Below are positions 2,292 to 22,348 of a stretch of 64,000 nucleotides of DNA, one piece after another. Position 1 is the first letter of the stretch. Each line of letters begins with the position of its first letter. The stretch covers positions 1 to 64,000 of the forward strand of contig NZ_JOEZ01000008.1 of NCBI RefSeq assembly GCF_000721175.1. Direction: 5' to 3'. This DNA is from Streptomyces anulatus (GTDB lineage Bacteria; Actinomycetota; Actinomycetes; Streptomycetales; Streptomycetaceae). Made by a program: the position numbers and the translations under genes. The notes under the pieces were generated by a model. The model made no database searches, was not told the origin of the DNA, and was given only the letters and a program-made list of their open reading frames with translations.

Positions 2292-2369
2292 AGCACCGTC
2301 TCTGCTTCCTGCTGGGCCTGGCCTGGTTGTGGCTGGCCAGTCTAAGCAGACCGGTCGGATACGCCCCGG

Positions 2370-4067
2370 TCAGCGGCCCTGCAGTTTGGCGGAGCTGGTC
2401 CGGGCCTTGCCGAGCTTCTTGTAGAGACGCGCTCCGGGGCATTCGGTTGCGAAACCGTCCCGATGACCCGAGATGACGTTCATCTTGACCTTCGTGCCGG
2501 CCCTGTACTTGTTGCTTCCGCCGGAGGTGAGGGTGACCTTCCCCTTGGGGTTGGCCCCGAACAGACCGAGCTTCCAGGCGGTGAGCTTGGAGACGGCGGT
2601 CACCGCGGCGGCGGGCGGGTTGGTGAAGGAGTAGCTGCCGAGCACCGCGATCCCCATGGTGTTCGTGTTGAAGCCCAGGGTGTGCGCTCCGAGGACCGCC
2701 TTCGCGACTCCTCCGGCCCGGCCCTCGTAGATGTTTCCGCACTTGTCGACGGCGAAGTTGTAGCCGAAGTCGCGCCAGCCGCTGCTCTTGACGTGGTAGC
2801 GGTAGATGCTGCGGAGCACCGAAGGGGCCTGCTTGCAGGTGTAGTTGTTGCCGGTCGCGCTGTGGTGCACGAAGGCCGCCCTGACGGACTTGGTGTACGC
2901 GAAGTTCCGCTCGCGGAGCCTCTCGTCCGCGCCCCAGCCCTTACGGGTGATGATCTTCGGCCGGGGTCCGATGTACGGCCTCGCCCCGGCTGCGACGATC
3001 GCCGCCGCCTCCTCCGTCTCCGCCTTGGTCAGCGCGGGGATGACGGCCGCGCCGAGCGGCGCGAGGTCCGCGTTGACGGCCGAGGTGGCGGCGGATTCGG
3101 CGGTGAGCGCCTCCGGCACGGCCGCTGTCGTCGTCGGCGGTGCCGGGTTGGCGGCGAACGTGGCCGGGGTGGCGGACCGGCCGACGGGGGCGGCACGGCC
3201 CGCGGGGGCCTCGCTGGCGGGTTCCGGCGCGGGGTCCTCGCCGGGGTCGACGAGTTCGAGCCGCAGTCCTTCGGGGAGCGGCACGGCGGCGGACCGGTGC
3301 TGCGGGTCGGCCGCCTCCGGGCGTACGCGTACCTCCACGCCGTCCGAGTCACCGACCCAGAGCGGGGCCGTCGCTCCGCGCACGGCGCCGGACGTCCGCT
3401 CGTCGCTCCCGAGGTCGGCGGCGTGCTCGGCGTTGTGGGTCTCGACGTCCTGCCAGTCCGACCAGCTCGTGCCGCCGGCCGCCCGGGTGCGGACCTGGAC
3501 CGTGCCGTGCAGTTCGGCCTCGGCATCGTCCCAGACCACGCCCACCAGGGAGAACGGGCGGGCGTCGCGCTGGGCCAGGCCCTGGCCGGCCGCCGCCGGG
3601 CCCACGACGCGGTCGGACGGTGCGGTGAGGGGCTCCAGGGGCAGGGACTGCGTCGAGCCGGCCGGCTCGGCCGCGCGGGTCTCGCCGGCCCGTGCCGACG
3701 GTGGGGCGGTGTCGGCCGCCCGGAAAGGTGCGGGTTCGGCCGGCGTGATTCCGGGGAGCTCGTTTCCGGCGGGCTCGTTTCCGGCGGGCTCGTTTTTTCC
3801 GGCAGGCTCGTTTCCGGCGGGTGCTGCTTCGAGGGCTTCCGCTTCGGCAGGTGCGGCTTCGAGGGCTTCCCCTTCGCCGGGGGCGGCTTCGGCCCGTGCC
3901 GACGGCGGCCCGGATCCCGGCGATTCGGGGGACACGGAAGGCGGCCGGGCGGAGTGCGGGGCCGGGGCGGACAGGGCGGGGGCGGCGAGCGGCAGAGTGA
4001 GGGCCGCCGCGCAGGTGACGCCGACTGAGGTGACCAATAGTGCACGCATACGCATGATCCTGGCCAT
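2370..4067 (-). CDS. Secreted PGRP-type N-acetylmuramoyl-L-alanine amidase
   Basis: Exported peptidoglycan amidase that cuts the bond between N-acetylmuramic acid and the stem peptide. The 565-aa protein starts with a signal peptide (about 1-35) and then an Ala/Glu/Pro-rich region with repeated PAGNE motifs (about 55-110). A beta-rich module follows at about 160-275 (GVVWD...SWSDWQ), which often precedes this amidase type in actinomycetes. The PGRP/amidase_2 domain covers about 375-548. The zinc ligands are visible: His in VHHSAT (401/402), H535 in SGHRDG and C543 in ECPGA, plus the family Tyr at 436. This set predicts real catalysis rather than binding only. MRMRAL, four codons downstream, is an alternative start. 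Confidence 0.9.
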   Translation of the reverse strand: MARIMRMRALLVTSVGVTCAAALTLPLAAPALSAPAPHSARPPSVSPESPGSGPPSARAEAAPGEGEALEAAPAEAEALEAAPAGNEPAGKNEPAGNEPAGNELPGITPAEPAPFRAADTAPPSARAGETRAAEPAGSTQSLPLEPLTAPSDRVVGPAAAGQGLAQRDARPFSLVGVVWDDAEAELHGTVQVRTRAAGGTSWSDWQDVETHNAEHAADLGSDERTSGAVRGATAPLWVGDSDGVEVRVRPEAADPQHRSAAVPLPEGLRLELVDPGEDPAPEPASEAPAGRAAPVGRSATPATFAANPAPPTTTAAVPEALTAESAATSAVNADLAPLGAAVIPALTKAETEEAAAIVAAGARPYIGPRPKIITRKGWGADERLRERNFAYTKSVRAAFVHHSATGNNYTCKQAPSVLRSIYRYHVKSSGWRDFGYNFAVDKCGNIYEGRAGGVAKAVLGAHTLGFNTNTMGIAVLGSYSFTNPPAAAVTAVSKLTAWKLGLFGANPKGKVTLTSGGSNKYRAGTKVKMNVISGHRDGFATECPGARLYKKLGKARTSSAKLQGR

Positions 4068-4186
4068 ACAGCCATAGCTCCGGCTACCCGGACATCGGCC
4101 TCGACGTGACGCTCCGTCTGCCGAACCGGTGTACGTGACACCCGTTCAGCCCGCCCCGCACAGCGTCCCCGCGTACGCTTGCGCGG

Positions 4187-4939
4187 ATGAACTCCAGCGA
4201 CCGCACCCCTGCCGACCTGCTGCGATCCGCCCTTGCCGCGGACCCGGCCCGCCCCTTGGTCACCTTCTACGACGACGCCACCGGAGAACGCGTCGAACTG
4301 TCGGTGGCGACCTTCGCCAATTGGGTGGCCAAGACCGCCAATCTGCTCCAGGGCGACCTCGCCGCGGAGCCCGGCGACCGGCTCGCCCTGTTGCTCCCCG
4401 CGCACTGGCAGTCCGCGGTCTGGCTGCTCGCCTGCTCCTCCGTCGGGGTCGTCGCCGATGTCCAGGGCGACCCGGCCGCCGCCGACCTCGTCGTGACCGG
4501 CCCGGACACCCTGGAGCGGGCGCGGGCCTGCCGGGGTGAGCGGGTCGCCCTCGCCCTGCGTCCGCTGGGCGGCCGGTTCCCGCAGGCGCCCGAAGGGTTC
4601 GCGGACTACGCGGTGGAGGTGCCGAGCCAGGGCGACCGCTTCGCGCCCTTCGCCCCGGTGGACCCCGAAGCTCCCGCGCTGGCCGTCGGCGGGATGGAAC
4701 TGACAAGTGCGCAGCTCGTCGCCAAGGCCCGCGAGGATGCCGGCGTCCTCGGGCTCGTACCGGGGTCCCGGCTGCTCACCGGGCGTACGTACGACACCTG
4801 GGACGGGCTGAGCGCCGGGCTTTTCGCGCCACTGGCGGCCGGTGCGTCCGTGGTGCTCTGCCGCCACCTCGGACAGCTCGACGCGGATGGACTCGCCAAG
4901 CGCACCGAGAGCGAGCGGGTCACCGACACCGCGGCATGA
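4187..4939 (+). CDS. TIGR03089 family protein (conserved actinobacterial, AMP-binding-like)
   Basis: A 250-aa cytoplasmic protein of the actinobacterial TIGR03089 family, whose function is unknown. It resembles the N-terminal part of acyl-CoA synthetases / AMP-binding enzymes (TPADLLRSAL...PLVTFYDDATGERVELS...NWVAKTANLL), but it lacks the C-terminal catalytic half and no clear adenylate-forming P-loop is visible. It is divergent from the amidase and is followed 177 bp later by the first LCP gene. In other actinomycetes the family also tends to lie near LCP genes (recall). The start is the first ATG, and no strong ribosome-binding site is visible before it. Confidence 0.8.
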   Translation: MNSSDRTPADLLRSALAADPARPLVTFYDDATGERVELSVATFANWVAKTANLLQGDLAAEPGDRLALLLPAHWQSAVWLLACSSVGVVADVQGDPAAADLVVTGPDTLERARACRGERVALALRPLGGRFPQAPEGFADYAVEVPSQGDRFAPFAPVDPEAPALAVGGMELTSAQLVAKAREDAGVLGLVPGSRLLTGRTYDTWDGLSAGLFAPLAAGASVVLCRHLGQLDADGLAKRTESERVTDTAA

Positions 4940-5116
4940 CATGCGCTCCGAGGTCCACCCGTCCGGCCCACAGCGGGCCGAGCCCCCGGTGCACAGCACC
5001 GGAGCGGGTAGATGATCGGGCGGTACAGACCACTCTCCTTGCTGTGCACAACCAAGCGTGAGTTTCAGCCGTCTACTCCTGCGACCGGCGGCCCCTCACG
5101 CCGCCGAACGTGAAGG

Positions 5117-6679
5117 ATGGACGCAGACGTGACCGACAGTGCTGGCCCGCCGTCCGACCCGGACAACCCGGCCGGGGACAAGCCGCAAGGCAGGTCGCAG
5201 GAAGAGTCCGGGGCCGAGGGCGGAGCCCCGGAGGACGTGACCCCGAAAGCCGTGACCCCGCAGGACGTGACCCCGAAAGCCTTGGCCCCGCAGGACGGAG
5301 CTTCCGAGGACGGGGCTCCTGAAGCCGCCGAGTCCGAGAAGGCCGAGGGCGCGGAGCGTGCGGAGAGCGCCGCGAACGCCGAGAGCTCGGAGACCTCGGA
5401 GAGTTCCGGGAAGGGTGAAGGCGAGGGCGCGGGCGGGGCCGAGGGTGATCCCGGCCCCGGTGACCCCGCCCCCGTCGGCGCGGCAGCGAGCGGTGACGGC
5501 GAGCAGACCTGGGCCGATCAGCCCAAGGACGGCGTCGTCGCCACGCGCAAGAGCCACTGGCTGCGCTGGACCGCGCTCGCCGCCTCGTTCCTCGTGCTGG
5601 TCGCGGCGGGGGCGGGCTGGTGGCTCTACAAGAAGCTCGACGGGAACATCACCACCGACACGAGCGCCGCCGCCGAGCTCAAGGCGTACGAGAAGGAACG
5701 GCCGGCCCCGGTCGTCATGGACGCGCAGAACATCCTGCTCATCGGGTCCGACAGCCGGGCCGGGGACAACCGTGAGTACGGCCGGGACGACGGCGGCAGC
5801 CAGCGCTCCGACACCACGATCCTGCTGCACCTCGCGGCGGACCGGAAGAGCGCGACGGCCGTGTCCCTCCCCCGCGACCTCATGGTGGAGATCCCCAGCT
5901 GCCGCACCGCGGACGGCAAGGAGACGCGGGAGCGGTTCACCCAGTTCAACGCGGCGTTCGAGCTCGGCGGCACCGCCTGCACGATCCGCACCGTGGAGCG
6001 GATGACCGGCATCCGCGTCGATCACCACATGGTCGTCGACTTCAACGGCTTCAAGGACATGGTCGACGCCGTGGACGGGGTCGAGATCTGCCTCAAGGAG
6101 CCGATCGACGACAAGGACGCGCACCTGGAGCTCCCGGCCGGCCGGCAGACGCTGAACGGCGAGGAGGCCCTCGGCTACGTACGGGCGCGCAAGTCGCTCG
6201 GCAACGGCAGCGACACCGAACGGATGGAGCGCCAGCAGCAGTTCCTGGGCGCCCTGGTGAACAAGATGCAGAGCAACGGCGTCCTGCTCAACCCGACGCG
6301 GCTCTACCCGGTGCTGGACGCGGCGACCAAGTCACTGACCACGGACCCGGGGCTGGACTCGCTGCGCGACCTCTACGACCTGGTGCGCGGGATGCGCAAC
6401 GTACCGACCGAGCAGGTGCAGTTCCTGACCGTGCCCCGGCAGCCGTACCGCAACAACGCGAACCGGGACGAACTCGTCGAACCGGACGCGGGTGACCTGT
6501 TCAAGCAACTCCGTGAGGACCGGCCCGTCGCCGTGGTCCCGGCCGACGAACTGGAGGAGGCGCAGCAGGACCAGAAGAAGGAGCAGCACGGAAAACCGGA
6601 CGACACCGGGTCCCGAAGCCCGACGCCCGCACCCACCTATTCGGGCTCGAGTGCGGCGGACGACCTGTGCAAGCAGTAA
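5117..6679 (+). CDS. LCP family glycopolymer transferase 1 (no LytR_C domain)
   Basis: LytR-CpsA-Psr protein. Members transfer lipid-linked glycopolymers (teichoic-acid-like polymers, polysaccharides) to peptidoglycan on the outer face of the membrane. The 520-aa protein has a long acidic, Ala/Glu/Pro-rich cytoplasmic tail (1-145) with a repeated VTP-type unit, one membrane segment (about 150-171) and the LCP domain (about 204-450). Conserved catalytic/lipid-binding residues are visible in NILLIGSDSR (D212, R214), SDTTILLHL (D232) and SLPRDL (R253, D254). No LytR_C domain follows. GTG at 5129 is an alternative start, with a better-spaced AAGG. It is the first of five LCP genes in 10 kb. Confidence 0.92.
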   Translation: MDADVTDSAGPPSDPDNPAGDKPQGRSQEESGAEGGAPEDVTPKAVTPQDVTPKALAPQDGASEDGAPEAAESEKAEGAERAESAANAESSETSESSGKGEGEGAGGAEGDPGPGDPAPVGAAASGDGEQTWADQPKDGVVATRKSHWLRWTALAASFLVLVAAGAGWWLYKKLDGNITTDTSAAAELKAYEKERPAPVVMDAQNILLIGSDSRAGDNREYGRDDGGSQRSDTTILLHLAADRKSATAVSLPRDLMVEIPSCRTADGKETRERFTQFNAAFELGGTACTIRTVERMTGIRVDHHMVVDFNGFKDMVDAVDGVEICLKEPIDDKDAHLELPAGRQTLNGEEALGYVRARKSLGNGSDTERMERQQQFLGALVNKMQSNGVLLNPTRLYPVLDAATKSLTTDPGLDSLRDLYDLVRGMRNVPTEQVQFLTVPRQPYRNNANRDELVEPDAGDLFKQLREDRPVAVVPADELEEAQQDQKKEQHGKPDDTGSRSPTPAPTYSGSSAADDLCKQ

Positions 6680-6903: not shown

Positions 6904-8679
6904 GTGGACGCGCACAGTCGTGGACGGGCGGACGATATCGACCCCGCCGACCAGTGGGTACTCAACCCGCACACCGGTAATTACGAATTGCGACTGGACC
7001 ACTCCGCAGGGGAGTCGAGCAGTCCTTCGCGTACGGCCACGGCTGCCGAAGCAACCGGTCGCCGCGGTGACTCCCGGACCGGTTCGGGGCGTCGCGGGGC
7101 CGCCGGCACGCGTGAACGTGAGGGCGCTCCGGACGGGCCGCGCCGCGAGGTGCCCGGGCAGCGCAGCCGCCGCAGCTCCCAGGCGGCACGTGCGGCCGCC
7201 GAGCCGCCCGCGTCCGGCCGCCGGAAGCGCAAGCCGCAGAAGTCGCGCAAGAAGAAGGCGCTGCTGTGGACGGGCGGGGGCACGGCGTTCGTCGTCGTCG
7301 CCGCCTCGCTCGGCGTGTACCTCGTGTACCAGAAGCTCAACGGCAACATCGACACCATCGACGTGGGCGACGCCGGCAGCAAGAGCGTCCTCGGCGACGG
7401 CCCGATGAACATCCTGATCATCGGCACCGACAAGCGCACCGGCAAGGGCAACGAGGGGTACGGCGACAAGGGCAGCGAGGGCCACGCCGACACCACCATC
7501 CTGTTCCACGTCTCCGAGGACCGGACCAACGCGACGGCGATGAGCATCCCGCGCGACCTGGTGACCGAGATCCCCGAGTGCGAGGCGAAGAAGCCGGACG
7601 GCACCTCCACGATCATCCCCGGCACCCCGAACGAACGCTTCAACACCAGCCTCGGCCAGAACGGCCGTAATCCCGGCTGCACCATGAAGACGGTCGAGAA
7701 CATCACCGGCCTCAAGCCCGATCACTTCATGATGGTCGACTTCAACGCGGTCAAGGACCTGACGACGGCGGTCGGCGGCGTCAAGGTCTGCATGGCGAAG
7801 CCGATCGACGACCCGAAGTCGCATCTGGTGCTGCCCCAGGGCGAGTCGAAGGTGCAGGGCGAGAACGCGCTGGCCCTGCTGCGCACCCGGGACAGCTTCG
7901 GCAACAGGAGCGATCTCGACCGGATCAAGGTGCAGCAGCAGTTCCTCGGCTCCATGATCCGCGAGATGAAGTCGAGCGACACCCTGACCAACCCGAAGAA
8001 GCTGTACTCGCTGGCCGACGCGGCCACCAACGCGCTGACCGTCGACACGGGCATCGGCGACGCGAAGAAGCTGATGACGCTGGCCCAGGAGATCGGCAAG
8101 GTCGACACGAAGAACATCAGCTTCCTCACGATGCCGGTCGTCGACAACCCGGCCGAGCCGAAGCCCGTCACCGTGGTCGTGGACCCGGTCAAGGGTGAGC
8201 AGCTCTTCGCGATGATGCGCTCCGACACCTCGCTGACCGAGGTGAAGCAGAAGGAGAAGGCCGCCAAGGGCAAGCAGGCGGCCCTGCTCAAGGGCCCGAA
8301 GGCCGAGCCCGCCGACGTACGCGTGGACGTCCTCAACGGCGGTGGGATCCCCGGCGCGGCGGGTTCGACCGTCACCTGGCTCCAGAACGAGCAGGGGGTG
8401 CTGAAGTCCACCAACAAGGCCAACGCACCCGAGAAGATCAAGAAGACGACGCTGGAGTACGCGCCCAACCAGGCCGATCAGGCCCGGGCACTCGCCGCGA
8501 TGATGGGGCTGCCCGCCGCGGCCATGAAGCAGGGCACCGCCGACGCCGAGGGGCTTGAGGCGATGGTGCTCACGCTGGGGGCGGACTTCAAGGGCGCCGG
8601 CCAGCTCATCACCGGGCCGGCGAAGGCTCCGGAGGGCGTCGAGCAGGCAAGCGCCGACAAGGCGGTATGCGCCAAGTGA
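6904..8679 (+). CDS. LCP family glycopolymer transferase 2 with LytR_C domain
   Basis: Second LCP protein, 591 aa, starting at GTG after a GGAGG-containing ribosome-binding site. Residues 1-118 form a cytoplasmic Arg/Lys-rich tail ending in a basic patch, and a single membrane segment spans about 119-141. The LCP domain starts at NILIIGTDKR (170-179), with DTTILFHVS and SIPRDLV as the signature motifs. The C-terminal part (about 470-570) is a LytR_C domain (VRVDVLNGGG...), typical of actinobacterial LCPs and of unclear role. Expected reaction: transfer of an undecaprenyl-phosphate-linked polymer to the wall. The older label LytR transcriptional regulator would be wrong, since no DNA-binding domain is seen. 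Confidence 0.93.
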   Translation: MDAHSRGRADDIDPADQWVLNPHTGNYELRLDHSAGESSSPSRTATAAEATGRRGDSRTGSGRRGAAGTREREGAPDGPRREVPGQRSRRSSQAARAAAEPPASGRRKRKPQKSRKKKALLWTGGGTAFVVVAASLGVYLVYQKLNGNIDTIDVGDAGSKSVLGDGPMNILIIGTDKRTGKGNEGYGDKGSEGHADTTILFHVSEDRTNATAMSIPRDLVTEIPECEAKKPDGTSTIIPGTPNERFNTSLGQNGRNPGCTMKTVENITGLKPDHFMMVDFNAVKDLTTAVGGVKVCMAKPIDDPKSHLVLPQGESKVQGENALALLRTRDSFGNRSDLDRIKVQQQFLGSMIREMKSSDTLTNPKKLYSLADAATNALTVDTGIGDAKKLMTLAQEIGKVDTKNISFLTMPVVDNPAEPKPVTVVVDPVKGEQLFAMMRSDTSLTEVKQKEKAAKGKQAALLKGPKAEPADVRVDVLNGGGIPGAAGSTVTWLQNEQGVLKSTNKANAPEKIKKTTLEYAPNQADQARALAAMMGLPAAAMKQGTADAEGLEAMVLTLGADFKGAGQLITGPAKAPEGVEQASADKAVCAK

Positions 8680-8728
8680 CACCGGGTCACCGCGCCACAG
8701 CGGAAATCTGAACAGCATGGGGGGTCCG

Positions 8729-10417
8729 GTGGTACGGAGCAGCACGCGCGGGGAGGGGACGCGATCACGTGTCCGCCACGCTGATCAACTCGGCCGGGAC
8801 GAGAGCCTGCACGAGGGTGACGGCGACGGAGCGGGGGGCGGGGAGGGGCCGGGGACCGGCCATCGGTCGGCGAAGGGCCGACGCGGCAGCGGGGGCGGCG
8901 CCCAGGGGGCCGGCAGCCGCCGGGCCCCGAAGAGCGGCACGCGGCGCGCCCTGCGCTGGAGCGCCTCCGTGCTCGCCGTGCTGATACTCGGCACCGGCGG
9001 CGCCGGTTACCTCTACTACGAGTACCTCAACAGCAACATCAAGAAAGAGGATCTGACCCTCGGCGACAAGCAGATGGCCGACCACAAGGCCAATGCCGCC
9101 GGGCAGACCCCGCTCAACATCCTGCTCATCGGCTCCGACGCCCGGGACTCCGAGGCCAACCAGAAACTGGGCGGGGCGAAGGAGACCTTCGGAGCACCGC
9201 CGCTGGCCGATGTGCAGATGCTGCTCCACATCTCCGCGGACCGCTCCAACCTCTCCGTGATCAGCATGCCGCGCGACACCATGCTGAAGATGCCCAAGTG
9301 CACGGCCCCGGACGGCGAGGTCTTCCCGGCCAGCACCGGCGACGTGCAGACCAACGAGAGCCTGGGGCGCGGCGGTCCGGGGTGCACGGTGGCCACCTGG
9401 TACGAGCTGACCGGCATCCGGATCGACCACTTCATGATGATCGACTTCGCCGGTGTGGTGTCCATGGCCGACGCCATCGGCGGCGTCCCGGTCTGCGTCG
9501 ACGCCAACATCCGCTCGAGGAACGCCGACGGCAAGGGCTCCGGGCTGGAGCTGGAGAAGGGCACCACGTACATCCAGGGCGAGCAGGCCCTCCAGTGGCT
9601 GCGCACCCGGTACGGCTTCGAGGACAACACCGACCTCGGTCGGGCGAAGGCCCAGCACCAGTACATGAACTCCATGGTCCGCCAGCTGCGCAAGGGCACC
9701 AAGCTCACCGACCCGGCGAAGCTGACGAACCTCGCCGAGGCGGCCACCAAGGCGCTGACGGTCGACAAGGGCCTCGACACGGTCAAGAAGCTCTACGACC
9801 TGGCCGAGGAGTTCAAGAAGGTCCCCACGAAGCGCATCACGATGTCGACGATGCCCAACGTGTACGGCACCGGCTCGAACAACGGCCGGGTCTACCCGAA
9901 GGCCGGCGACGCGGAGCAGCTGTTCCGGATGGTCCGCGACGATGTGCCGCTGGACGGCAAGGCCTCCAAGCGGAAGAAGCCGGAGGAGCCCAAGGACCCG
10001 TCGGCGCCGGTCGGCGAGATCGCCGTCGCCGTACGGAACGGGACCGCCACCGACACGCTCGGACCGGCCTCGGGGCGTGCGGGGGACGTGGCGGACCAGC
10101 TGAAGGAAGCGGGGTTCGGGAGGACCACCGTCGACCCGAACAGCGTGACCGGGTCGGCACGGACGGCGATCCTGTATCCGAGCGCGGATCTGGAGGGCGA
10201 CGCGCAGGCGGTCGCCAAGGCGCTCGGGGTTCCGCTGTCGCAGGTGAAGAAGTCCACCGACGTCTCGGGGATCTCGCTCGCCGTGGGCGCGGACTGGCGC
10301 GAGGACGGGGCCTATCCGGTGTCCAAGGGCACGGAGAAGACTCCGGAGTCGGCGGGGGCCCTCAACGGCGAGGAAGAGGGGGCCTGCATGAAGGTCAACC
10401 CGAACTACACCTGGTGA
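8729..10417 (+). CDS. LCP family glycopolymer transferase 3 with LytR_C domain
   Basis: Third LCP protein, about 562 aa. A GTG at 8729 preceded by a G-rich Shine-Dalgarno-like run is preferred. ATG 8717 is the alternative and would add four residues. The N-terminal about 75 residues are Gly/Arg-rich and cytoplasmic, and the membrane segment is at about 77-98 (VLAVLILGTGGAGYLYY). The LCP core contains NILLIGSDAR, ADVQMLLHIS and SMPRDTM. A LytR_C domain (VAVRNGTATDTLG...) fills about 430-530. The gene lies only 49 bp after LCP2, so they are probably cotranscribed. A 17-bp tandem duplication spans its stop codon, and a strong hairpin terminator follows at 10458-10492. Confidence 0.92.
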   Translation: MVRSSTRGEGTRSRVRHADQLGRDESLHEGDGDGAGGGEGPGTGHRSAKGRRGSGGGAQGAGSRRAPKSGTRRALRWSASVLAVLILGTGGAGYLYYEYLNSNIKKEDLTLGDKQMADHKANAAGQTPLNILLIGSDARDSEANQKLGGAKETFGAPPLADVQMLLHISADRSNLSVISMPRDTMLKMPKCTAPDGEVFPASTGDVQTNESLGRGGPGCTVATWYELTGIRIDHFMMIDFAGVVSMADAIGGVPVCVDANIRSRNADGKGSGLELEKGTTYIQGEQALQWLRTRYGFEDNTDLGRAKAQHQYMNSMVRQLRKGTKLTDPAKLTNLAEAATKALTVDKGLDTVKKLYDLAEEFKKVPTKRITMSTMPNVYGTGSNNGRVYPKAGDAEQLFRMVRDDVPLDGKASKRKKPEEPKDPSAPVGEIAVAVRNGTATDTLGPASGRAGDVADQLKEAGFGRTTVDPNSVTGSARTAILYPSADLEGDAQAVAKALGVPLSQVKKSTDVSGISLAVGADWREDGAYPVSKGTEKTPESAGALNGEEEGACMKVNPNYTW

Positions 10418-10441
10418 CGCGCTGCACCTGGTGACGCCGTG
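10408..10441. repeat. 17-bp tandem duplication across the LCP3 stop codon
   Basis: Two adjacent 17-bp copies (10408-10424 and 10425-10441) share CACCTGGTGACGC and match at about 15 of 17 positions. The first copy contains the last codons and the TGA (10415-10417) of the third LCP gene. It is one of four stop-spanning duplications in this window. Confidence 0.85.
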
Positions 10442-10457
10442 CGGGGGGCGCACACGG

Positions 10458-10492
10458 CGAAGGTCCCCACCGCCGAGCGGTGGGGACCTTCG
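10458..10492. terminator. Bidirectional hairpin terminator between LCP3 and GT2
   Basis: Perfect 15-bp stem (CGAAGGTCCCCACCG / its complement) around a 5-nt loop, between two convergent genes. There is no long T-run, as is usual for Streptomyces terminators. Confidence 0.85.
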
Positions 10493-10504
10493 TGCGTCGT
10501 GGGC

Positions 10505-11536
10505 TCAGACGGTCTCGCTGCTGCTGCCGGTCATCGCCGGCCGACGGCTCGCGATGACCCGCCTGGCCAGGGACCGGGGGCTGGTGAGGAAGCCGAAGCC
10601 CCAGCACATGTGCATGGTCGCCAGCGCCACCGGGATCTGGGCGCGGGCCTTCAGCGAGAGGCCCTTGCCCGCGGGCAGCGACCCGGCGACGATCGCGGCC
10701 ACGTAACCGCCCGGGACGACCAGCGCCCACGGGGTGACGGCCGCGCCCAGGACCAGGCCGGCCGCGATGGCCACGACGGCGGTCGGCGGGGCCAGGTAGC
10801 GGAGGTTGATCGAGCCGGGGTGGTAGCGGGCCACGACGTGGCGCCAGCGGCCGTAGTCCTTGTACTGCTTGGCGAGCGCCTTCACCGTGGGGCGCGGGCG
10901 GTACTGCACCTTCAGTTCGGGCGAGAACCAGATCAGCCCGCCGGCCTCGCGGATGCGGAAGTTCAGCTCCCAGTCCTGGGCGCGGATGAACTCGACGTTG
11001 TAGCCGTCGGCCCGCTCCAGCGCCTCGCGGCGGAAGACGCCGAGGTAGACGGTCTCGGCCGGGCCCGCCTGACCGCCGGTGTGGAAGGCGGCGTTGCCGA
11101 CGCCGATCTTCGAGGTCATCGCGGCGGAGACGGCCTCCTCCCAGGCGTTCTCGCCCTCGGCGTGCATGATGCCGCCGACGTTCTGCGCGCCGGTCTCCTC
11201 CAGGAGGCGGACGGCGGTCGCGATGTAGTTCGGCGAGAGCATGCCGTGACCGTCCACCCGTACGACGACGGGGTGGCGGGAGGCCTTGATCGCCGCGTTG
11301 AGGGCGGCGGGGGTGCGGCCGGTGGGGTTGGGCACGGTGTGGACCCGGGGGTCCTCGGCGACCAGTTCGGCGGCGATCTCGTCCGTCCGGTCGGCGGAGG
11401 GGCCGAGCGCGATCACGACCTCCATCTCACCGGCGTACTCCTGCTCCAGGATGTGCCGGACCGAGTTCCTGAGATGGCGTTCCTCGTTGAGCACCGGCAT
11501 GATCACGGAGACGGCGGGGTACTGCGCGGCAGACAT
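10505..11536 (-). CDS. Family 2 glycosyltransferase
   Basis: GT-A fold glycosyltransferase of 343 aa that would transfer a sugar from a nucleotide-sugar to a glycan or lipid acceptor at the membrane. The start codon is placed at MSAAQYPAVSVIMPVLNEE, the canonical GT2 opening; a longer upstream frame lacks any family similarity. The nucleotide-binding strand (VSVIMPVLNE), VVRVDGHG in place of the DxD motif, and QDWELNFRIREAGG (the ED/QxxRW-like region) are visible. The C-terminal about 70 residues carry two or three hydrophobic segments that could anchor it in the membrane. Its place inside the LCP cluster suggests it builds the polymer the LCP proteins attach, but this is inference. Confidence 0.88.
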   Translation of the reverse strand: MSAAQYPAVSVIMPVLNEERHLRNSVRHILEQEYAGEMEVVIALGPSADRTDEIAAELVAEDPRVHTVPNPTGRTPAALNAAIKASRHPVVVRVDGHGMLSPNYIATAVRLLEETGAQNVGGIMHAEGENAWEEAVSAAMTSKIGVGNAAFHTGGQAGPAETVYLGVFRREALERADGYNVEFIRAQDWELNFRIREAGGLIWFSPELKVQYRPRPTVKALAKQYKDYGRWRHVVARYHPGSINLRYLAPPTAVVAIAAGLVLGAAVTPWALVVPGGYVAAIVAGSLPAGKGLSLKARAQIPVALATMHMCWGFGFLTSPRSLARRVIASRRPAMTGSSSETV

Positions 11537-15475: not shown

Positions 15476-15682
15476 TCAGCTGCCGGAGGCGTACGGGACG
15501 AAGTCCGCCCAGGCGGCGGGGGTGAAGCCGAGCGGAGACCTGGCGAGGTCCTTGGAGTCGCGGACGTACACAGTGCTGCGGGCGGCGGCGACCTCGACGC
15601 ATTCGGGGCCGTCGTTGCTGCTGTAGCTGCTCTTGAACCACTCCAGGGCGGAGCCGTCTCCGCTCGGGGCTATGCGTGTCAT
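15476..15682 (-). CDS. DUF397 domain protein
   Basis: Small 68-aa protein of the DUF397 family ([18 protein letters not shown]...VYVRDSKD...[11 protein letters not shown]). DUF397 proteins are abundant in Streptomyces and nearly always pair with an Scr1-type Xre regulator, as here: its start overlaps the regulator's stop by 4 bp (ATGA). Members of such pairs are reported to bind and antagonise the regulator, in the manner of BldB-like or WhiJ-linked small proteins. That role here is inferred from the pairing. Confidence 0.9.
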
Positions 15683-16590
15683 GTCTCTCCCAGCACTTTC
15701 TCGACGAAGGCCAGCGATTCCCGGGGAGTGAGACCCTGGGCCCGGACGAGACCGAGCCGCTGCTCCAGGATCCGGATTTCCTTGGGGTCGAAGGTCAGGC
15801 GGTTGAACAACTGCCCCTCCCAGTGTCCCACCGCCGTTCCGTCCTTGAACTTGAGGAGCTGGAGCTGACCTCCCATCCCGGCGTGGTCCTCCCGGTCGGT
15901 CGGCATCACCTGGATCTCGACGTTCCGCAACTGCCCCAGTTCCAGAAGGTGTTCGAGCTGGCGGCGCAGCACCGCACGTCCGCCGAGCGGTCGTCGGATC
16001 GTCACCTCCTCCTGGACGAAGGTGAGCATGGTTAATGGCTTCCGCCGGAAGATCTCCTGTCGCGCCATGCGTGCCGCGACGTACCGTTCGACCTCGTCTG
16101 GACCGAACGCCGGCCGCCGCATCTCATAGAGCGCGCGGGCGTATTCAGCGGTCTGGAGAAGCCCGTGCACGTTGTGATTACCGTACGCGCCGAGCTCGAC
16201 CGCTTCCCGTTCGAGCTTGGCAAGGTCTTTCACCTTCTTCGGGTAACGGGCCTCCGCCACGTCCTGCTTCATCGCGGAGATCTTGCCGCGCGCACCCACG
16301 ACCCTGTCCGTAGCGTCCAGGAACTCCGGCTTGGGAATGCGTCGTCCGCCCTCGACCTTGAAGACGAGGTTCTCGCTGTACCCGATGGCCGCGCCCAGCT
16401 CGGCGGCGCGCAGCCCCGCCGCCTCCCGCCAGAGTTTGATCTGCCGCCCCACGGCGGCCATGACCGCGCTCGAATCGTCGGCCGGATCGATGTCGAGGTC
16501 GAGATCCGGCTCGGACACGCTCTCGTCCGCCGCTGCTCCCGCTTCCATTTTGTGCGCTGCCGCGCCGCGCCTGCCGTCTTCGTCAGCCAT
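15679..16590 (-). CDS. Xre-family regulator with DUF5753 (Scr1/WhiJ-like), TTA-containing
   Basis: Transcriptional regulator of 303 aa. After an acidic N-terminal extension (about 1-35) comes a helix-turn-helix ([19 protein letters not shown]...[19 protein letters not shown], about 45-95). DUF5753 then runs to the C-terminus ([13 protein letters not shown]...LRHVEIQVMP-like region). The start MADEDG is preferred; an upstream ATG adds 15 non-conserved residues. It is translationally coupled to the DUF397 gene. Codon 186 is TTA (16033-16035), which makes translation depend on the bldA tRNA-Leu(UAA), so the pair is probably active in late growth or development. Two nested hairpins lie just upstream (16664-16737). 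Confidence 0.9.
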
Positions 16591-16663
16591 GGTGCGCAGC
16601 GTAGGGACGGCGGGCCGCAACAAGGGTCGGATCACCGGAAATCCACCCGAATTCGCTGCTCAC

Positions 16664-17929: not shown

Positions 17930-17978
17930 CATGAAGGGGACGACCCTGACCCCCGGGCACGATCGAGGAGCTCGCATC

Positions 17979-18156
17979 ATGACCATCGCCTCGGACGATG
18001 TACAGCGGGATGCTGCGCACTATCGGGCCATGCGCGACATCGTGGAGCAGATGCGGGAGCGCATCCCGGGCAAGTTCGAGATCACCAAGGAAGGGATCGT
18101 GCACGACATGATGGCCCCGGGGCGGCCCCACGAGCTGACGGCGGCCCAGGTGCGCC
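17979..18156 (+). pseudogene. Uma2-family (PD-(D/E)XK nuclease-fold) gene, 5' remnant
   Basis: From ATG 17979, with a GAGGAG box eight bases upstream, about 59 codons encode the typical N-terminus of Streptomyces Uma2 proteins (HYRAMRDIVEQM...GKFEITKEGIVHDMM...PHELTA). Similarity stops at about 18156, and the frame then runs in antisense through another gene fragment to 18389. The PD-(D/E)XK active-site half is missing, so no nuclease activity is expected. The 3' loss ends at exactly the base where the neighbouring remnant also loses its 3' end, so one deletion removed both. Confidence 0.8.
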
Positions 18157-18275
18157 TGACACAGGCTCTGCGGCAACGGCGGCTTCTCCACGTTGTCGGG
18201 CCAGACACTCGCCGTCACCACCGCCACTCCCGCGACGCCGAGCACCACGGTCAGCGGCAACCACTTCTTGTCCAT
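18157..18275 (-). pseudogene. 5' remnant of a third anchored Cys-rich protein gene
   Basis: From ATG 18275 the first 40 codons (MDKKWLPLTVVLGVAG...) match the start of the intact gene at 18919-19515 at 34 of 40 residues, up to LPQSLC. After that the frame passes antisense into the Uma2 remnant. The DNA homology to the intact copy begins at TGACACAGGCTCTGCGGCAA (18157). The fragment keeps the signal-anchor but has no further domain. It shows that the array once had at least three paralogues. Confidence 0.85.
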
Positions 18276-18304
18276 CGGTTGCTGTCCTCTTCGCTTGTCG
18301 TGTG

Positions 18305-18898
18305 TCAGGCGGCGCAGTCGTACTGCTTGGTCAGGTTTTCCACGGCCTCAAGGATCACGGTGCGCGAGTCCTTCTTCAGCGACGCGTAGTCCCAGTCCCG
18401 TCCGACGATGGCAACCGGTGAGACCTTGAGGGTGACGCTGATGTACTGCGCGTCGGGCCGCCTCATCTCCTTCGCGCACCTGTCCGGCAGTTGGACCTCA
18501 CTCCGCCGCTGGCCCACCCAGCCCGTGAGGCCGTCCCCGATGGGGGTGGCGCCCTTCGGGGGGTCGTTCAGCGTTTCGGTGGGCCGTACGTCCAAGGTGT
18601 ACTGGAGCCGCATGCCGCTCTTGTCGTCGGCGTTCTCCCGATTGACGAAGCAGATGGTGGAGAAGATCGGGTCCACCGACCTGGACACGGATCCCGAGCC
18701 CTCCGGGATGAGCCCGTCGACCACGACGGCTCCGCCCTTGCCGTCCTGGAGCAGGCCGGCGGTCCGCTCCGTCAGCATGCCCAGGCACAGGTTCCGCTCG
18801 CGCAGCTCCTTGAGCTCCGTCGGCCAGAGGTTGACCGTCGCGACGACCGCCGCCGCGACGGCGAGCACTGCGGGCAGCACCAGGTACTTCTTGTTCAT
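18305..18898 (-). CDS. Membrane-anchored Cys-rich protein, paralogue B
   Basis: Protein of 197 aa with an N-terminal signal-anchor (MNKKYLVLPAVLAVAAAVVATVNLW, about 1-25) and a predicted extracytoplasmic domain. I do not recognise a named family. Its four cysteines (NLC, TIC, DRC, YDC) occupy the same positions as in the adjacent paralogue (SLC, SC, AGC, YDC), and the C-terminal QYDCA is shared, so two disulfides are likely. A TTG at 18922 overlapping the upstream stop is a weaker start. It is the last intact gene of a four-gene operon behind the 749-aa protein, which suggests a partner or immunity/anchor role; that is inference. Confidence 0.75.
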   Translation of the reverse strand: MNKKYLVLPAVLAVAAAVVATVNLWPTELKELRERNLCLGMLTERTAGLLQDGKGGAVVVDGLIPEGSGSVSRSVDPIFSTICFVNRENADDKSGMRLQYTLDVRPTETLNDPPKGATPIGDGLTGWVGQRRSEVQLPDRCAKEMRRPDAQYISVTLKVSPVAIVGRDWDYASLKKDSRTVILEAVENLTKQYDCAA

Positions 18899-18918
18899 GG
18901 CTACGTTGGTCCCGACGG

Positions 18919-19515
18919 TCAATCCGCGCAGTCGTACCGCTTGGCGAGCCTGGTGGCCACTTCCCGCATCACGGTCACGTTGTTACGCAGCGCGATGTCC
19001 GCGTCGACAGGCCGCTTCTCCTCCAGCCTGGCCAAGCGCTCCTCATCCTGCGAGGGCACGTCGAGCGACACCTCGATGTACGGAGCAGTCGAGCCCATAC
19101 GGGCGGCGCAGCCGGCAGGCAACGTGACCTCGGCTTCGTCGGGAAGCGCCCAGCCGGCGAAGCCGGGACCGAGAGGGACGGAGTCCTTCTTGCGGCCGGG
19201 GGCGCTCCGGGTATCCGCGATGAGCAGCTTGTAGACCCCGCGCGGATAGTCGTTGTCCGAATTGGCGCGCAGCACGTAACACGATCTGAATACCGCGTAG
19301 TCAGTGGTCTTGCCCTTACTCTCCCACTCCTCCGCGCTGACCTCTCCCCCCTTGCCGTCGTCGATCAGCTCCGCCGTCTCCCGGCTGAGCGCACCATGAC
19401 ACAGGCTCTGCGGCAACCGCGGCTTCTCGACGTTCTCAGGCCAGACACTCGCCGTCACCACCGCCACCCCGGCGACGCCGAGCGTGATCGCCAACGGCAG
19501 CCACTTCTTGTCCAT
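18919..19515 (-). CDS. Membrane-anchored Cys-rich protein, paralogue A
   Basis: Protein of 198 aa with an N-terminal hydrophobic anchor (about 5-25) after a MDKKWL cap, then an extracytoplasmic domain with four conserved cysteines and a helical C-terminus ending YDCAD. It is homologous to the following gene and nearly identical at its start to the remnant at 18157-18275. It begins 3 bp after the 749-aa gene ends, so the genes are almost certainly cotranscribed. No family is recognised. The topology (short inside, large outside) and linkage to WXG-like and large helical proteins suggest a surface or secretion-associated component. Confidence 0.75.
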   Translation of the reverse strand: MDKKWLPLAITLGVAGVAVVTASVWPENVEKPRLPQSLCHGALSRETAELIDDGKGGEVSAEEWESKGKTTDYAVFRSCYVLRANSDNDYPRGVYKLLIADTRSAPGRKKDSVPLGPGFAGWALPDEAEVTLPAGCAARMGSTAPYIEVSLDVPSQDEERLARLEEKRPVDADIALRNNVTVMREVATRLAKRYDCAD

Positions 19516-19518
19516 CGA

Positions 19519-21768
19519 CTACTGCCCCATCAGCTTGTCGGCCTCGGTCAAGCCGTTCAGGTACCACTCCTTGGCCTTCGGCTGGAGATGGTCCTCGTAC
19601 TCGCCGGGGCTCGCGTCCAGATCCGTCATCGAGAGCCCTCGTTCCGTGGCCATCTGGCGCAACATGCCGTACATCTGCTTCTGGCCGTAGTCGTAGTGCT
19701 TGATCATGTTGTTGCGGGTCTCAGCATCAACCTTGGCGTTCTCCTTGTTCAGGTGCTCGTTCAGACCAGCGTCCACCGTTCGCTGCATCGCATCGCCAGC
19801 GAACGGGATGGGTGTGAGCAGCCCGCCGACGATGTGGTAATTGAGCACCCTCTTGTAGGCGTTGGCGTCCTTCTCCGCCTGGCCCAGGTCGTAGATGACA
19901 TCACCGCGCACGCCGTCGAGGTGACCGAGCACGAAGGCAGACTGCTTGACCCATGCCCGCAACTCTTCGTCTTTCTGGCGGAAGGAGTGTGCCTGGAAGC
20001 GATCGAGCCCCTCACTGGTGACCACGGACTGCGAGGCGTGAATCATCTTGTAGGCGTTGGGATCCTCTGCTGTCGCTCGGATGATCCGGGTGAGGTCACC
20101 CCGGTCGATCTCGAGCTGGTTGAAGTCGGTAACCCCGTCCATCTCCTTGCCGAGGATCTGGTGCACGTCGGAGCCGTAGTCGGCGATCATGTCGGCCATC
20201 GGCAGGCGCATGGTGACGGGGATGGCGCTCTGGTCCTTGTGGAGAGCCGCCGTGTACTCGCCCATCACCCGCTCGAAGATCGCGGTCTCGGCGGCGTCGT
20301 GGTGAGCCGGAACCAGGTGCATCGGGGAACCGGGCGCGCGGCCGGTGGCCGCGGCCTCAAGTGCGAGGCCGAGCTCGGCGCGGGCCGAGGTGTACTGCTT
20401 CTCGTCCGGCATCTTGCTCTGGACTTCGCCGCCGGGCCACTCCCGGTCCTCCAGGAAGTACTTGAGGTTGTCGGTGGTGTTCGGGTCGAAGTAGTGGGTC
20501 GAGGCGGACGGGTTGCGGCTCATGGCGTTCAGCAGGCCCTTCATCGGGTCCTCCTGCGTGCCCTGCCAGTGCCTCAGGGGGCCGTCGTAGGCGTCGTCGT
20601 TGCCCGTCTCCCACTCACGGATGGTGTCGCCGACCTCGGTCAGGAAGGCCTCGCTGTAGACCGGGTCGCCCGCGTCCTTCTTCCAGGGCGAGGACTTCTC
20701 CTTGGGATCCTTGTTCGGGTCGTACACGGCGTTGTCGCCGGCGTCGGCGGCCATCAGGTCCGTGAGGTTCTTCAGGGTCGCGGCACCGCCCCCGATGGTC
20801 CCGGGGTGCTGGCGGGGCAAGCCGTTGCCGTCGCGGGCCGTGGTGATGAGCTTGTCGGTCCAGGCCGAGGTGACACCACCGGGGGAACCGATCGAGGAGT
20901 CCGGTCCGGTGGCGGTGGCAAGAGAGCCGGACAGCGCCTTGTAGAGGCGGGCGTCGGTGCTGGAGACCTGGCTGTCCCGGCCGCCCGACTCCAGGCTGCT
21001 GGCGAGCAGCAGGACGGCCTCCTGCTGGTCACGGCCCCGGTAGCTGAGGTTCGTCATCAGCTGCTCGGCGAAGGCCGGCGAGTTCTTGCCTTCCTCGGCG
21101 AAGGTGAGGAGCCGCTCGCGCTCGTCGTCGTCGAGGTGTTCCCAGCGCGCGTAGAGCTTGGCAGCCTCACGGCCGTTCTCCGCCTGCTGCTTCTCCTCGG
21201 CGCGCATCCTCTTGGCGTCGGCGATGCCATTGAGGTCGGTGCTGCCGAAGTCGTTGGGGTGATTGCGGATCAGCGCGCGCAGGCCCCAGGCGCAGATCTC
21301 ATCGGCTTCGTTGGCACGTTTCAGGATCCCTTCGAGCTTGCCACGCAGCGCCTCGAACTGCGCCTCGGTGGCGAGGGGTTCGGTGCTGTCCTTGGAGCGG
21401 CGGTCGGGGTGGACTCGATGGCTGAGAACGCCGTTGGGGTAGATGATGATGCCCGGCGGCGGATTCTCGTACGCGTACTTGAGGTCGTCCTGAGCCGACT
21501 TGAAGAGGGTGTGGGCATCACTGAGAAGGTCGCGTACCGACTCCGCTTCGGTGACAGCGTCACTGAATTCATTGGCGGTCTTGGTGACGAACCCCTTGGT
21601 TACGGAGGCGTTTTCGCCCGCCCAGCTGGACTTGCCGGCCTTGGACTCCATTGCCTTGGCGTCGGTCTGGAGAGGCGATTTCAGCTTGCCGATCATCTCG
21701 GTCCACTGCGTCACCGCCGTGGCGAGCGGGGTGAGCCGGGCGGTGAGGAGCTGCTCGAAGGTGGGCAC
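19519..21768 (-). CDS. Large helical protein, DUF6571-like, possibly secretion-associated
   Basis: Protein of 749 aa with no signal peptide. The first about 130 residues are alpha-helical with a WAGENA motif and heptad-like pattern (FEQLLTARLTPLATAVTQW...), resembling the N-terminal helical modules of WXG100/LXG-type secreted proteins. The rest is largely helical and polar, with a hydrophobic patch at about 665-685 (VGGLLTPIPFAGDAM). It resembles Streptomyces proteins annotated DUF6571 (recall, moderate certainty). No enzymatic motif is recognised. It lies 12 bp after a small WXG-like gene and 3 bp before an anchored protein gene, so all act as one operon. A type VII-type effector/partner module is the leading inference. 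Confidence 0.7.
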   Translation of the reverse strand: MPTFEQLLTARLTPLATAVTQWTEMIGKLKSPLQTDAKAMESKAGKSSWAGENASVTKGFVTKTANEFSDAVTEAESVRDLLSDAHTLFKSAQDDLKYAYENPPPGIIIYPNGVLSHRVHPDRRSKDSTEPLATEAQFEALRGKLEGILKRANEADEICAWGLRALIRNHPNDFGSTDLNGIADAKRMRAEEKQQAENGREAAKLYARWEHLDDDERERLLTFAEEGKNSPAFAEQLMTNLSYRGRDQQEAVLLLASSLESGGRDSQVSSTDARLYKALSGSLATATGPDSSIGSPGGVTSAWTDKLITTARDGNGLPRQHPGTIGGGAATLKNLTDLMAADAGDNAVYDPNKDPKEKSSPWKKDAGDPVYSEAFLTEVGDTIREWETGNDDAYDGPLRHWQGTQEDPMKGLLNAMSRNPSASTHYFDPNTTDNLKYFLEDREWPGGEVQSKMPDEKQYTSARAELGLALEAAATGRAPGSPMHLVPAHHDAAETAIFERVMGEYTAALHKDQSAIPVTMRLPMADMIADYGSDVHQILGKEMDGVTDFNQLEIDRGDLTRIIRATAEDPNAYKMIHASQSVVTSEGLDRFQAHSFRQKDEELRAWVKQSAFVLGHLDGVRGDVIYDLGQAEKDANAYKRVLNYHIVGGLLTPIPFAGDAMQRTVDAGLNEHLNKENAKVDAETRNNMIKHYDYGQKQMYGMLRQMATERGLSMTDLDASPGEYEDHLQPKAKEWYLNGLTEADKLMGQ

Positions 21769-21780
21769 GGTGGCGACTCC

Positions 21781-22248
21781 TTACCGGAAGTACTTGCTGA
21801 TCTGGGAGGCGGGAACGGCCCCGTCCGCCTCTGGGGCAACGGGACCGATGATGCGCAGTTGCGCCTCGATCCACTCGTCGTCGGCCTTGCTCGACTTCTT
21901 CGTGTAATCGAGGTGATTGGAGATATGAGCACATGCCTGCAGGAGGGTCTTCACCTGCTTCTCCCAGGTCCCGATCACTTCCGTGAACGCCGCGCCGGTG
22001 TCGAACCCGTCGCCCTTGAGGCCCTTACCTGCGGTCTCGCTCGCCGCCTTCGCGTGCTTTCCGGTCGATTCGAGGCCGTTGAACAGGTCGAAGGCGGCGT
22101 GACCGATGTCCCCCAGCTCGTCGTCCGCGACCACGTAGTCGGCAGCCCCTTTCGGCCCGGAACCTCCGGTTCCGCCGGTGCCGCCGACCTGGTTCAGCCT
22201 CATCGCAGCGGCGGCCTTCAGCTCGCCCCACTCCTGTTCGAACGACAT
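21781..22248 (-). CDS. Small WXG100-like helical protein
   Basis: Protein of 155 aa, first gene of the operon. The start MSFEQEWG is preferred over an ATG three codons earlier. It has a helical N-terminus containing a W (EWGELKAAAAMRLNQ), a Gly-rich loop (GGTGGTGGSG) and a long amphipathic region with IGTWEKQVKTLLQACAHIS. Size and composition recall ESAT-6-like (WXG100) proteins of the type found in streptomycete gene pairs, but the classic WxG tripeptide is not present, so the label is tentative. The next gene starts 12 bp downstream. Confidence 0.65.
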   Translation of the reverse strand: MSFEQEWGELKAAAAMRLNQVGGTGGTGGSGPKGAADYVVADDELGDIGHAAFDLFNGLESTGKHAKAASETAGKGLKGDGFDTGAAFTEVIGTWEKQVKTLLQACAHISNHLDYTKKSSKADDEWIEAQLRIIGPVAPEADGAVPASQISKYFR

Positions 22249-22348
22249 GATCCACACCCCGTGTACTACTAGACAGTCGCCTCGCGCGCGTCACCCTACC
22301 TGTGTGATCAAACGATTCTCCAGCAGCGGATCTCCGGCTCTCCCCCCT

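Follow-up and report, generated by a model that had tools for sequence, protein, structure and literature searches.

The window, that is, the whole stretch of 64,000 nucleotides that was analyzed (positions 1 to 64,000 of NZ_JOEZ01000008.1, contig C8 of the 8.4-Mb Streptomyces anulatus assembly GCF_000721175.1), carries between positions 18157 and 22248 a cassette of four intact genes and the remnant of a further one. They are named here S (the small partner), L (the large protein), R1 and R2 (paralogous anchored proteins), and R3 (the remnant):

21781..22248, minus strand: S, 155 aa, with an ATG start at 22248 and another upstream GTG at 22257
19519..21768, minus strand: L, 749 aa, with a GTG start
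21379..21768, minus strand: L residues 1-130, the WXG hairpin domain, with invariant W22 and W49 and predicted helices 13-46 and 52-101
19522..20568, minus strand: L residues 401-749, whose sequence type tends to track the type of the adjacent R in permutation and tree tests
18919..19515, minus strand: R1, 198 aa, signal-anchored, with cysteines 39, 79, 136, and 196 and a predicted extracytoplasmic alpha/beta domain
18305..18898, minus strand: R2, 197 aa from its ATG (a 205-aa start is possible), a paralogue of R1 and of a second type, beginning MNKKYLVL
18157..18275, minus strand: R3 remnant, the opening 39 codons of another R gene that breaks off at about 18157, with a match to the R profile

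A preliminary description of this DNA had proposed a four-gene operon running in one direction. Direct reading of the minus strand gave the same gene order and the same gaps (12 bp between S and L, 3 bp between L and R1, and 20 bp between R1 and R2), which confirms the operon and its order. The third paralogue had been described as a fragment, in agreement with the match of R3 to positions 1-46 of the R profile (E = 5.3e-12). Comparisons were made in a locus set comprising the best 80 of 292 confirmed loci from a species-level genome collection, seven regions of this genome, four plasmid loci, and the window, in which genes were predicted by script and labeled with iterated profiles.

Protein families of the cassette

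L was assigned to the Pfam family DUF6571 (PF20211) over residues 366-725 (42.1 bits; gathering cut-off, 27), its only Pfam match at E-values up to 1, with no match to an LXG, RHS, or toxin family; NCBIfam and PDB sequence searches pointed to no function for L, and no signal peptide was seen. In the AlphaFold2 model (predicted local distance difference test score [pLDDT], 85.1), helices 13-46 and 52-101 form a long hairpin with W49-A50-G51 at its turn. Across 87 aligned L rows, W22 and W49 were invariant and the WxG at residues 49-51 was kept in 86. The hallmark of WXG100 proteins, a hairpin of two helices that turns at a WxG, is therefore present at the N terminus of L in both the alignment and the predicted structure, which bears out the WXG-like hairpin anticipated in the preliminary description. 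A structure search matched residues ~193-697 to a helical solenoid, and the protein as a whole comprises the WXG-like hairpin (residues 1 to ~130), the solenoid core, and a C-terminal half that evolves faster, with a hydrophobic segment containing P-x-x-G-D near residues 640-660. The PPE family (PF00823) was reached, under its cut-off, by a short L relative (E = 0.046), and the L of the window gave no PPE match at E-values up to 1. Short forms of 316-328 aa in loci L020, L027, L067, L068, and L077 retain the WXG domain (~residues 1-194); those of L020 and L027, the latter plasmid-borne, have a differing tail that is glycine-rich and hydrophobic. Downstream of L in L078 (12334-13254) and L079 (12416-13366) lie proteins of 306-316 aa that begin with a hydrophobic stretch and were labeled by profile as L-related, possibly reflecting domain exchange between L and an anchored partner.

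S, R1, and R2 gave no useful Pfam or NCBIfam match. As the initial S profile drifted into Esx proteins, a strict profile was built from L-linked S proteins alone; among 1553 proteins of the loci, eight of its nine matches weaker than 1e-4 were Esx-like (E = 5.8e-4 to 2.7e-3). Among 32 S proteins, two matched WXG100 (PF06013; best E = 1.7e-5) and two matched EspC (PF10824; best E = 0.0052), and a PDB sequence search with S returned Esx-like chains in three of six matches (4lws, 3fav, and 1wa8; E = 0.21-0.67), which is suggestive only. In 20 of the 32 rows, the column of S residue 120 shows a relaxed [YFHW]xxx[DE] motif; the S of the window reads SxxxD there. Some S relatives bear the UniRef name "AG1 protein". 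The weak profile and family matches suggest that S may lie near the WXG100 proteins, below the formal cut-off. The earlier view of S as a WXG-like partner thus retains a faint sequence link to WXG100 and EspC, with the S of the window itself falling below the WXG100 cut-off.

At two other sites of this genome, S-like genes (E = 3.3e-9 and 1.1e-7) precede alpha/beta-hydrolase proteins (PF06259; E = 1.2e-35 and 3.3e-33), so S may belong to a general partner family. One of these sites, L120 (contig C14, 52000-68000), holds at 7378-11101 a cassette of a second kind, with an S-like gene, a 602-aa Abhydrolase_8 protein (E = 1.2e-35), and two proteins that look alike by eye, one of them with a lipobox; at the other, L121 (contig C11), the S-like gene is paired with a homologue of 601 aa (E = 3.3e-33). 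A weak S-like match also starts another pair in this genome (L122, contig C3, 280000-294000; 6892-8615), which comprises a gene of 111 aa and a protein of 463 aa whose match to an SLT transglycosylase lies below the cut-off (E = 0.0064).

R1 and R2 share 35% identity and the same four cysteines, and R2 matched the R profile with E = 4.7e-69. Every sequence in two alignments, of 32 and 53 R proteins, kept all four cysteines, and a lipobox was found in seven of the 53 R relatives. The R model places a confidently predicted alpha/beta domain behind a hydrophobic N terminus that forms a single anchor, with no transport domain, and R proteins are accordingly predicted to be anchored proteins or lipoproteins that face outward. 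No Pfam family was matched by R, and Pfam, NCBIfam, and PDB sequence searches gave nothing usable. The best structural match was a Corynebacterium protein of unknown role, followed by RseB and TiME domains, and TipC was not named among the 50 matches listed in either R structure search, which has no bearing on whether the two share a fold. An orphan R is present elsewhere in this genome (L023, contig C14; 7597-9140), where a complete R-family protein of 358 aa, containing eight cysteines, comes after remnants of an L gene. In the window, a plus-strand frame at 17931-18160, which resembles the beginning of a gene for a Uma2-type nuclease, meets the R3 remnant head-on at about 18157; with two gene starts abutting there, the site looks like a deletion junction.

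Recurrence of the cassette and its link to ESX loci

Protein database searches yielded 96 matches for L, 581 for S, and 164 for R, the window's own included; named matches were nearly all from Streptomyces (for S and R, among the matches listed, 120 each). In the locus set, 81 L proteins had at least 600 aa; S lay directly upstream on the same strand for 69 of them, with a gap between -4 and 21 bp in 55 of these 69 pairs, and R lay directly downstream on the same strand for 55 of the 81. Because this gene order recurs, the cassette is not a chance arrangement. In a survey of 200 genomes of the window's family, in which five candidates per genome were scored for L and for EccC, an L relative (E up to 0.001) was present in 154. 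A class-wide sample gave L matches in 61 of 296 genomes, 34 of the 61 lying outside the genus, where matches were mostly weak and spanned the solenoid of L or, in some cases, its N-terminal region. Close L proteins (E up to 1e-150) were confined to eight of 392 genus genomes, this one included, with two candidates scored per genome. The cassette type of the window was found on plasmids, and several L relatives per genome were common.

Our data linked this family to type VII (ESX) secretion in two ways. Within flanks of up to 10 kb, eccC was present in 17 of 80 loci, and in 13 of the 17 S was the next gene, 57-466 bp downstream of eccC. A recurring order, with some further genes between, was eccD, eccC, S, L, R, an esx pair, mycP, and eccB (e.g., L046, L047, and L100). 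In a distance count drawn from 150 L and 150 EccC rows among the matches listed, 120 L rows came from genomes whose EccC rows were listed as well; 22 of these, in 20 genomes, lay at most 12 kb from EccC against ~0.46 expected, an enrichment of about 47 times. The second link is co-occurrence. EccC exceeded its cut-off in 190 of the 200 family genomes; among the 11 genomes whose best EccC was weaker than 1e-150, two had any L match (one with E = 3.3e-9; Fisher p = 3.5e-5), and taking 10 weak-EccC genomes instead gave p = 1.4e-4 or 7.7e-6, depending on which one was left out. L is thus nearly confined, among these 200 genomes, to those with a strong EccC. The co-occurrence with eccC and ESX genes that the preliminary description had proposed as a check was found for L relatives both by presence and by physical linkage; the two results hold for the relatives, not for the window copy's own neighborhood. 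Collectively, the type VII link is well supported for the L family, and we consider it highly probable.

This genome has three EccC genes above the family cut-off, and on its contig C25 a further S and an interrupted L stand between eccC and two esx-type genes. Four ESX-embedded loci (L017, L085, L100, and L104) carry a gene of 186-212 aa between S and L, with a lipobox in L100 and L104. Near the cassette of the window lies a gene for a helix-turn-helix regulator (16635-15679), and downstream of it on that strand a 68-aa gene resembling DUF397 (window 15476-16635); the two form a pair common in Streptomyces. An upstream methyltransferase gene was considered as a member of the operon and was dropped, because none adjoins S in several close cassettes (e.g., L031, L036-L039, and L042).

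Coupling of S and R with parts of L

In close cassettes, one of two R types stands first after L. Twenty rows of such cassettes yielded 18 with a clear R type, 17 of which also had a called S; a genus-wide follow-up returned seven regions, four of which we took to be L032, L034, L036, and L043 and three of which were added, giving 21 cassettes (12 R1 and nine R2). R occurred in tandem in five of the 18. Over L residues 201-325, identity within R types equaled that between them (p = 0.26-0.35 with 18 and again with 21 cassettes), whereas from about residue 301 on it differed by R type (p = 0.0000-0.0175), with the largest difference, 0.073, at residues 501-575. With 21 cassettes, segments from residue 401 on gave permutation p-values of 0.0000-0.009; in the first segment, residues 1-75, the difference was small (0.015; p = 0.0285). 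On a tree of L 401-749, the R label needed three changes against a shuffled mean of 7.1, and none of 500 shuffles was as low; on a tree of L 1-300 it needed five, and 32-45 of 500 shuffles were as low. The N-terminal half of the window's L fell in an eight-row group of four R1 and four R2 cassettes, whereas its C-terminal half fell in an all-R1 group of eight (support, 100/100), which suggests that the C-terminal half was exchanged together with R. R type therefore tends to follow the C-terminal half of L, with exceptions.

Mantel tests on the 17 cassettes coupled S best with L 1-130 (r = 0.77), and its correlation fell to r = 0.09 (p = 0.15) with L 601-749. In partial tests, S followed the N-terminal half of L given the C-terminal half (r = 0.70), and not the C-terminal half given the N-terminal half (r = -0.10). 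R correlated best with L 451-600 (r = 0.49) and, given the N-terminal half, still followed the C-terminal half (r = 0.34, p = 0.004). This gradient matches the expectation for an N-terminal export partner S and a C-terminal cognate partner R, and supports these roles.

A candidate ESX effector cassette and its alternatives

We read the cassette as a type VII (ESX, T7SSa) effector cassette consisting of an exported L, its export partner S, and outward-facing cognate R proteins that would most likely confer immunity, and we give this reading an even chance of being correct. In the proposed mechanism, S would pair in the cytoplasm with the N-terminal WXG hairpin of L and deliver it to the EccC ATPase, for which Lap proteins with LXG effectors, or PE with PPE proteins, may serve as models; L would then be exported whole, without a signal peptide. 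Outside the producer, the solenoid and C-terminal half might act on the envelope of neighboring kin, with the P-x-x-G-D segment perhaps inserted into the membrane. R, tethered to the outer face of the membrane, would bind the C-terminal half of L and shield the producer, and the tandem and broken extra copies would represent spare or collected immunity genes. That R confers immunity, rather than serving as a receptor or dock, is in our judgment roughly a toss-up. The proposal of surface receptors or immunity-type partners in the preliminary description fits R in its predicted outward orientation, its tandem copies, and the tendency of its type to follow the C-terminal half of L; export, toxicity, and protection remain predicted.

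The closest working model by analogy is provided by the Lap1/Lap2-LXG cassettes of Firmicutes (T7SSb) with membrane-tethered tandem immunity genes. According to PMC9600955, LXG domains bind small WXG-like partners that are required for export; in PMC6193138, TipC is described as a protein with a membrane segment at its N terminus and an inhibitory domain facing outward, and multiple tipC paralogues are reported. Tandem copies are known for esaG, tsaI, and tipC (PMC9484751 and PMC6193138), and tandem immunity genes are described as recombining, with little such evidence for tsaI (PMC9484751). A membrane-depolarizing LXG protein, TspA, is encoded far from the secretion locus (PMC7456083). The LXG, Lap1/Lap2, TipC, and TsaI systems resemble the present cassette in their small helical partner gene or genes, in a large protein that lacks a leader and carries a helical domain at its N terminus, and in tandem membrane proteins, and R, like TipC, is predicted to have an N-terminal membrane anchor and an outward domain. 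They differ in that S and L gave no Pfam match to LXG, DUF3130, or DUF3958 at E-values up to 1, one S gene replaces two lap genes, the C-terminal part of L is a conserved solenoid and not a swapped enzyme, and R has four invariant cysteines and no Pfam family. Given a like layout built from other sequence families, the cassette is treated as working like the Lap-LXG cassettes, not as a member of them. The PE/PPE and EspA/EspC/EspB proteins of mycobacterial ESX systems (T7SSa) likewise combine a small helical protein and a larger WXG-hairpin protein beside ESX genes, and the EspC matches in two of 32 S proteins and the PPE match in a short L are weak likenesses; S and L scored below the cut-offs, and we know of no counterpart of R in these systems. 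RHS toxins with WXG100_2, described among type VII polymorphic toxins in PMC3482391, share an N-terminal WXG domain, but the L of the window had no RHS or toxin match at E-values up to 1. One such gene, for a 1620-aa protein (1230-6092, minus strand, in L019), is found next to a different S-L cassette in this genome and reached Ntox27 with 19.7 bits against a cut-off of 24.

Several observations weigh against an effector role or against its supporting steps. No toxin domain was found in L, the structural matches of its core are helical-repeat scaffolds with no recognized enzyme, and L is conserved over its full length, unlike classical polymorphic toxins with replaced C termini. Neither S nor L of the window matched PF06013 at E-values up to 1 (cut-off, 27.3 bits), and the one L relative, among those scanned, that reached WXG100 (17.6 bits, E = 0.0048) matched FUSC slightly better (E = 0.0014), so that such matches may stem from helical structure of any kind. 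Scores to Esx proteins in profile-profile comparisons were low (probabilities of 6.7% and 1.5%, with P = 0.0054 and 0.035), and the WXG claim does not rest on them. The cassette of the window adjoins no ESX cluster. The coupling, too, is imperfect: four of the 12 R1 cassettes (L024, L129, L038, and L036, the first two being near-copies) lie on the tree side that holds all nine R2, S still correlates with L 301-600 (r = 0.33-0.36), and R correlates with the N-terminal half of L (r = 0.38; given the C-terminal half, 0.24, p = 0.013). As physical neighborhood predicts the same gradient, coupling supports the proposed roles but does not prove them.

The lack of a toxin domain, the full-length conservation, and the scaffold-like core leave room for a structural or carrier role of L. 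An ESX-exported structural or developmental factor, such as an EspB-like scaffold in hyphae or sporulation with R as nontoxic surface docking partners, would suit the resemblance of the core to solenoid scaffolds and the presence of cassettes within the core ESX locus of other species, and a sporulation role of Streptomyces ESX is in print, by the title of an EsxA/EsxB paper cited in PMC8401907. The patchy occurrence of the window's type (eight of 392 genus genomes), its presence on plasmids, the frequent occurrence of several L relatives per genome, and the apparent joint exchange of the L C-terminal half and R, which better suits conflict genes, make this role unlikely. If exported L instead bound a nutrient or metal that membrane-bound R took up, the covariation of its C-terminal half with R would equally fit a ligand-receptor pair. 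There is a precedent in ExsI and ExiR, proposed in Corynebacterium glutamicum (PMC12607788), and the structural matches of R, led by a Corynebacterium protein, are compatible with it. Within the cassette, however, no transporter gene was seen, R as modeled is held by one anchor and lacks a transport domain, and multiple R copies per L together with R remnants would be unusual for receptors; such a carrier is quite unlikely. A cytoplasmic S-L pair that is not exported, and whose presence in ESX loci is due to chance or hitch-hiking, would account for the window copy without ESX linkage and for the unmet Pfam WXG100 cut-offs. It is at odds with the enrichment near EccC, the co-occurrence test, the predicted outward orientation of R, and an L without a visible signal peptide, and appears very improbable.

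By Pfam cut-off, L is a member of DUF6571, a family whose name gives no function, so this part of the cassette is not wholly uncatalogued. The claim of an undescribed system therefore stands in part: literature searches in a collection without most subscription journals found no paper on DUF6571, nor one on such a cassette among the matches listed, as judged by title and opening of the abstract, but the L family was already in Pfam. What is added here to DUF6571 is its S and R partners and its ESX link. More broadly, S-L-R may be a standard cargo of Streptomyces ESX, an effector-immunity family with a solenoid effector that resides in the core ESX loci of many species, is spread by plasmids, and is reshuffled by joint swaps of the L C-terminal half and R; we hold this tentatively, at somewhat less than even chance. 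If true, the LXG arsenal would have an actinobacterial counterpart that arose with partner and immunity families of its own, and Streptomyces ESX would serve kin competition. To our knowledge, few Streptomyces ESX substrates beyond EsxA/EsxB have been reported, and the cassette offers a concrete, widespread candidate cargo, accompanied by a probable partner for export and by partners at the surface. Should L act as an effector against bacteria, competition by type VII secretion would reach a large group of soil bacteria and would involve an effector of a new kind; as a carrier or a scaffold, L would help to clarify the function of ESX in these organisms.

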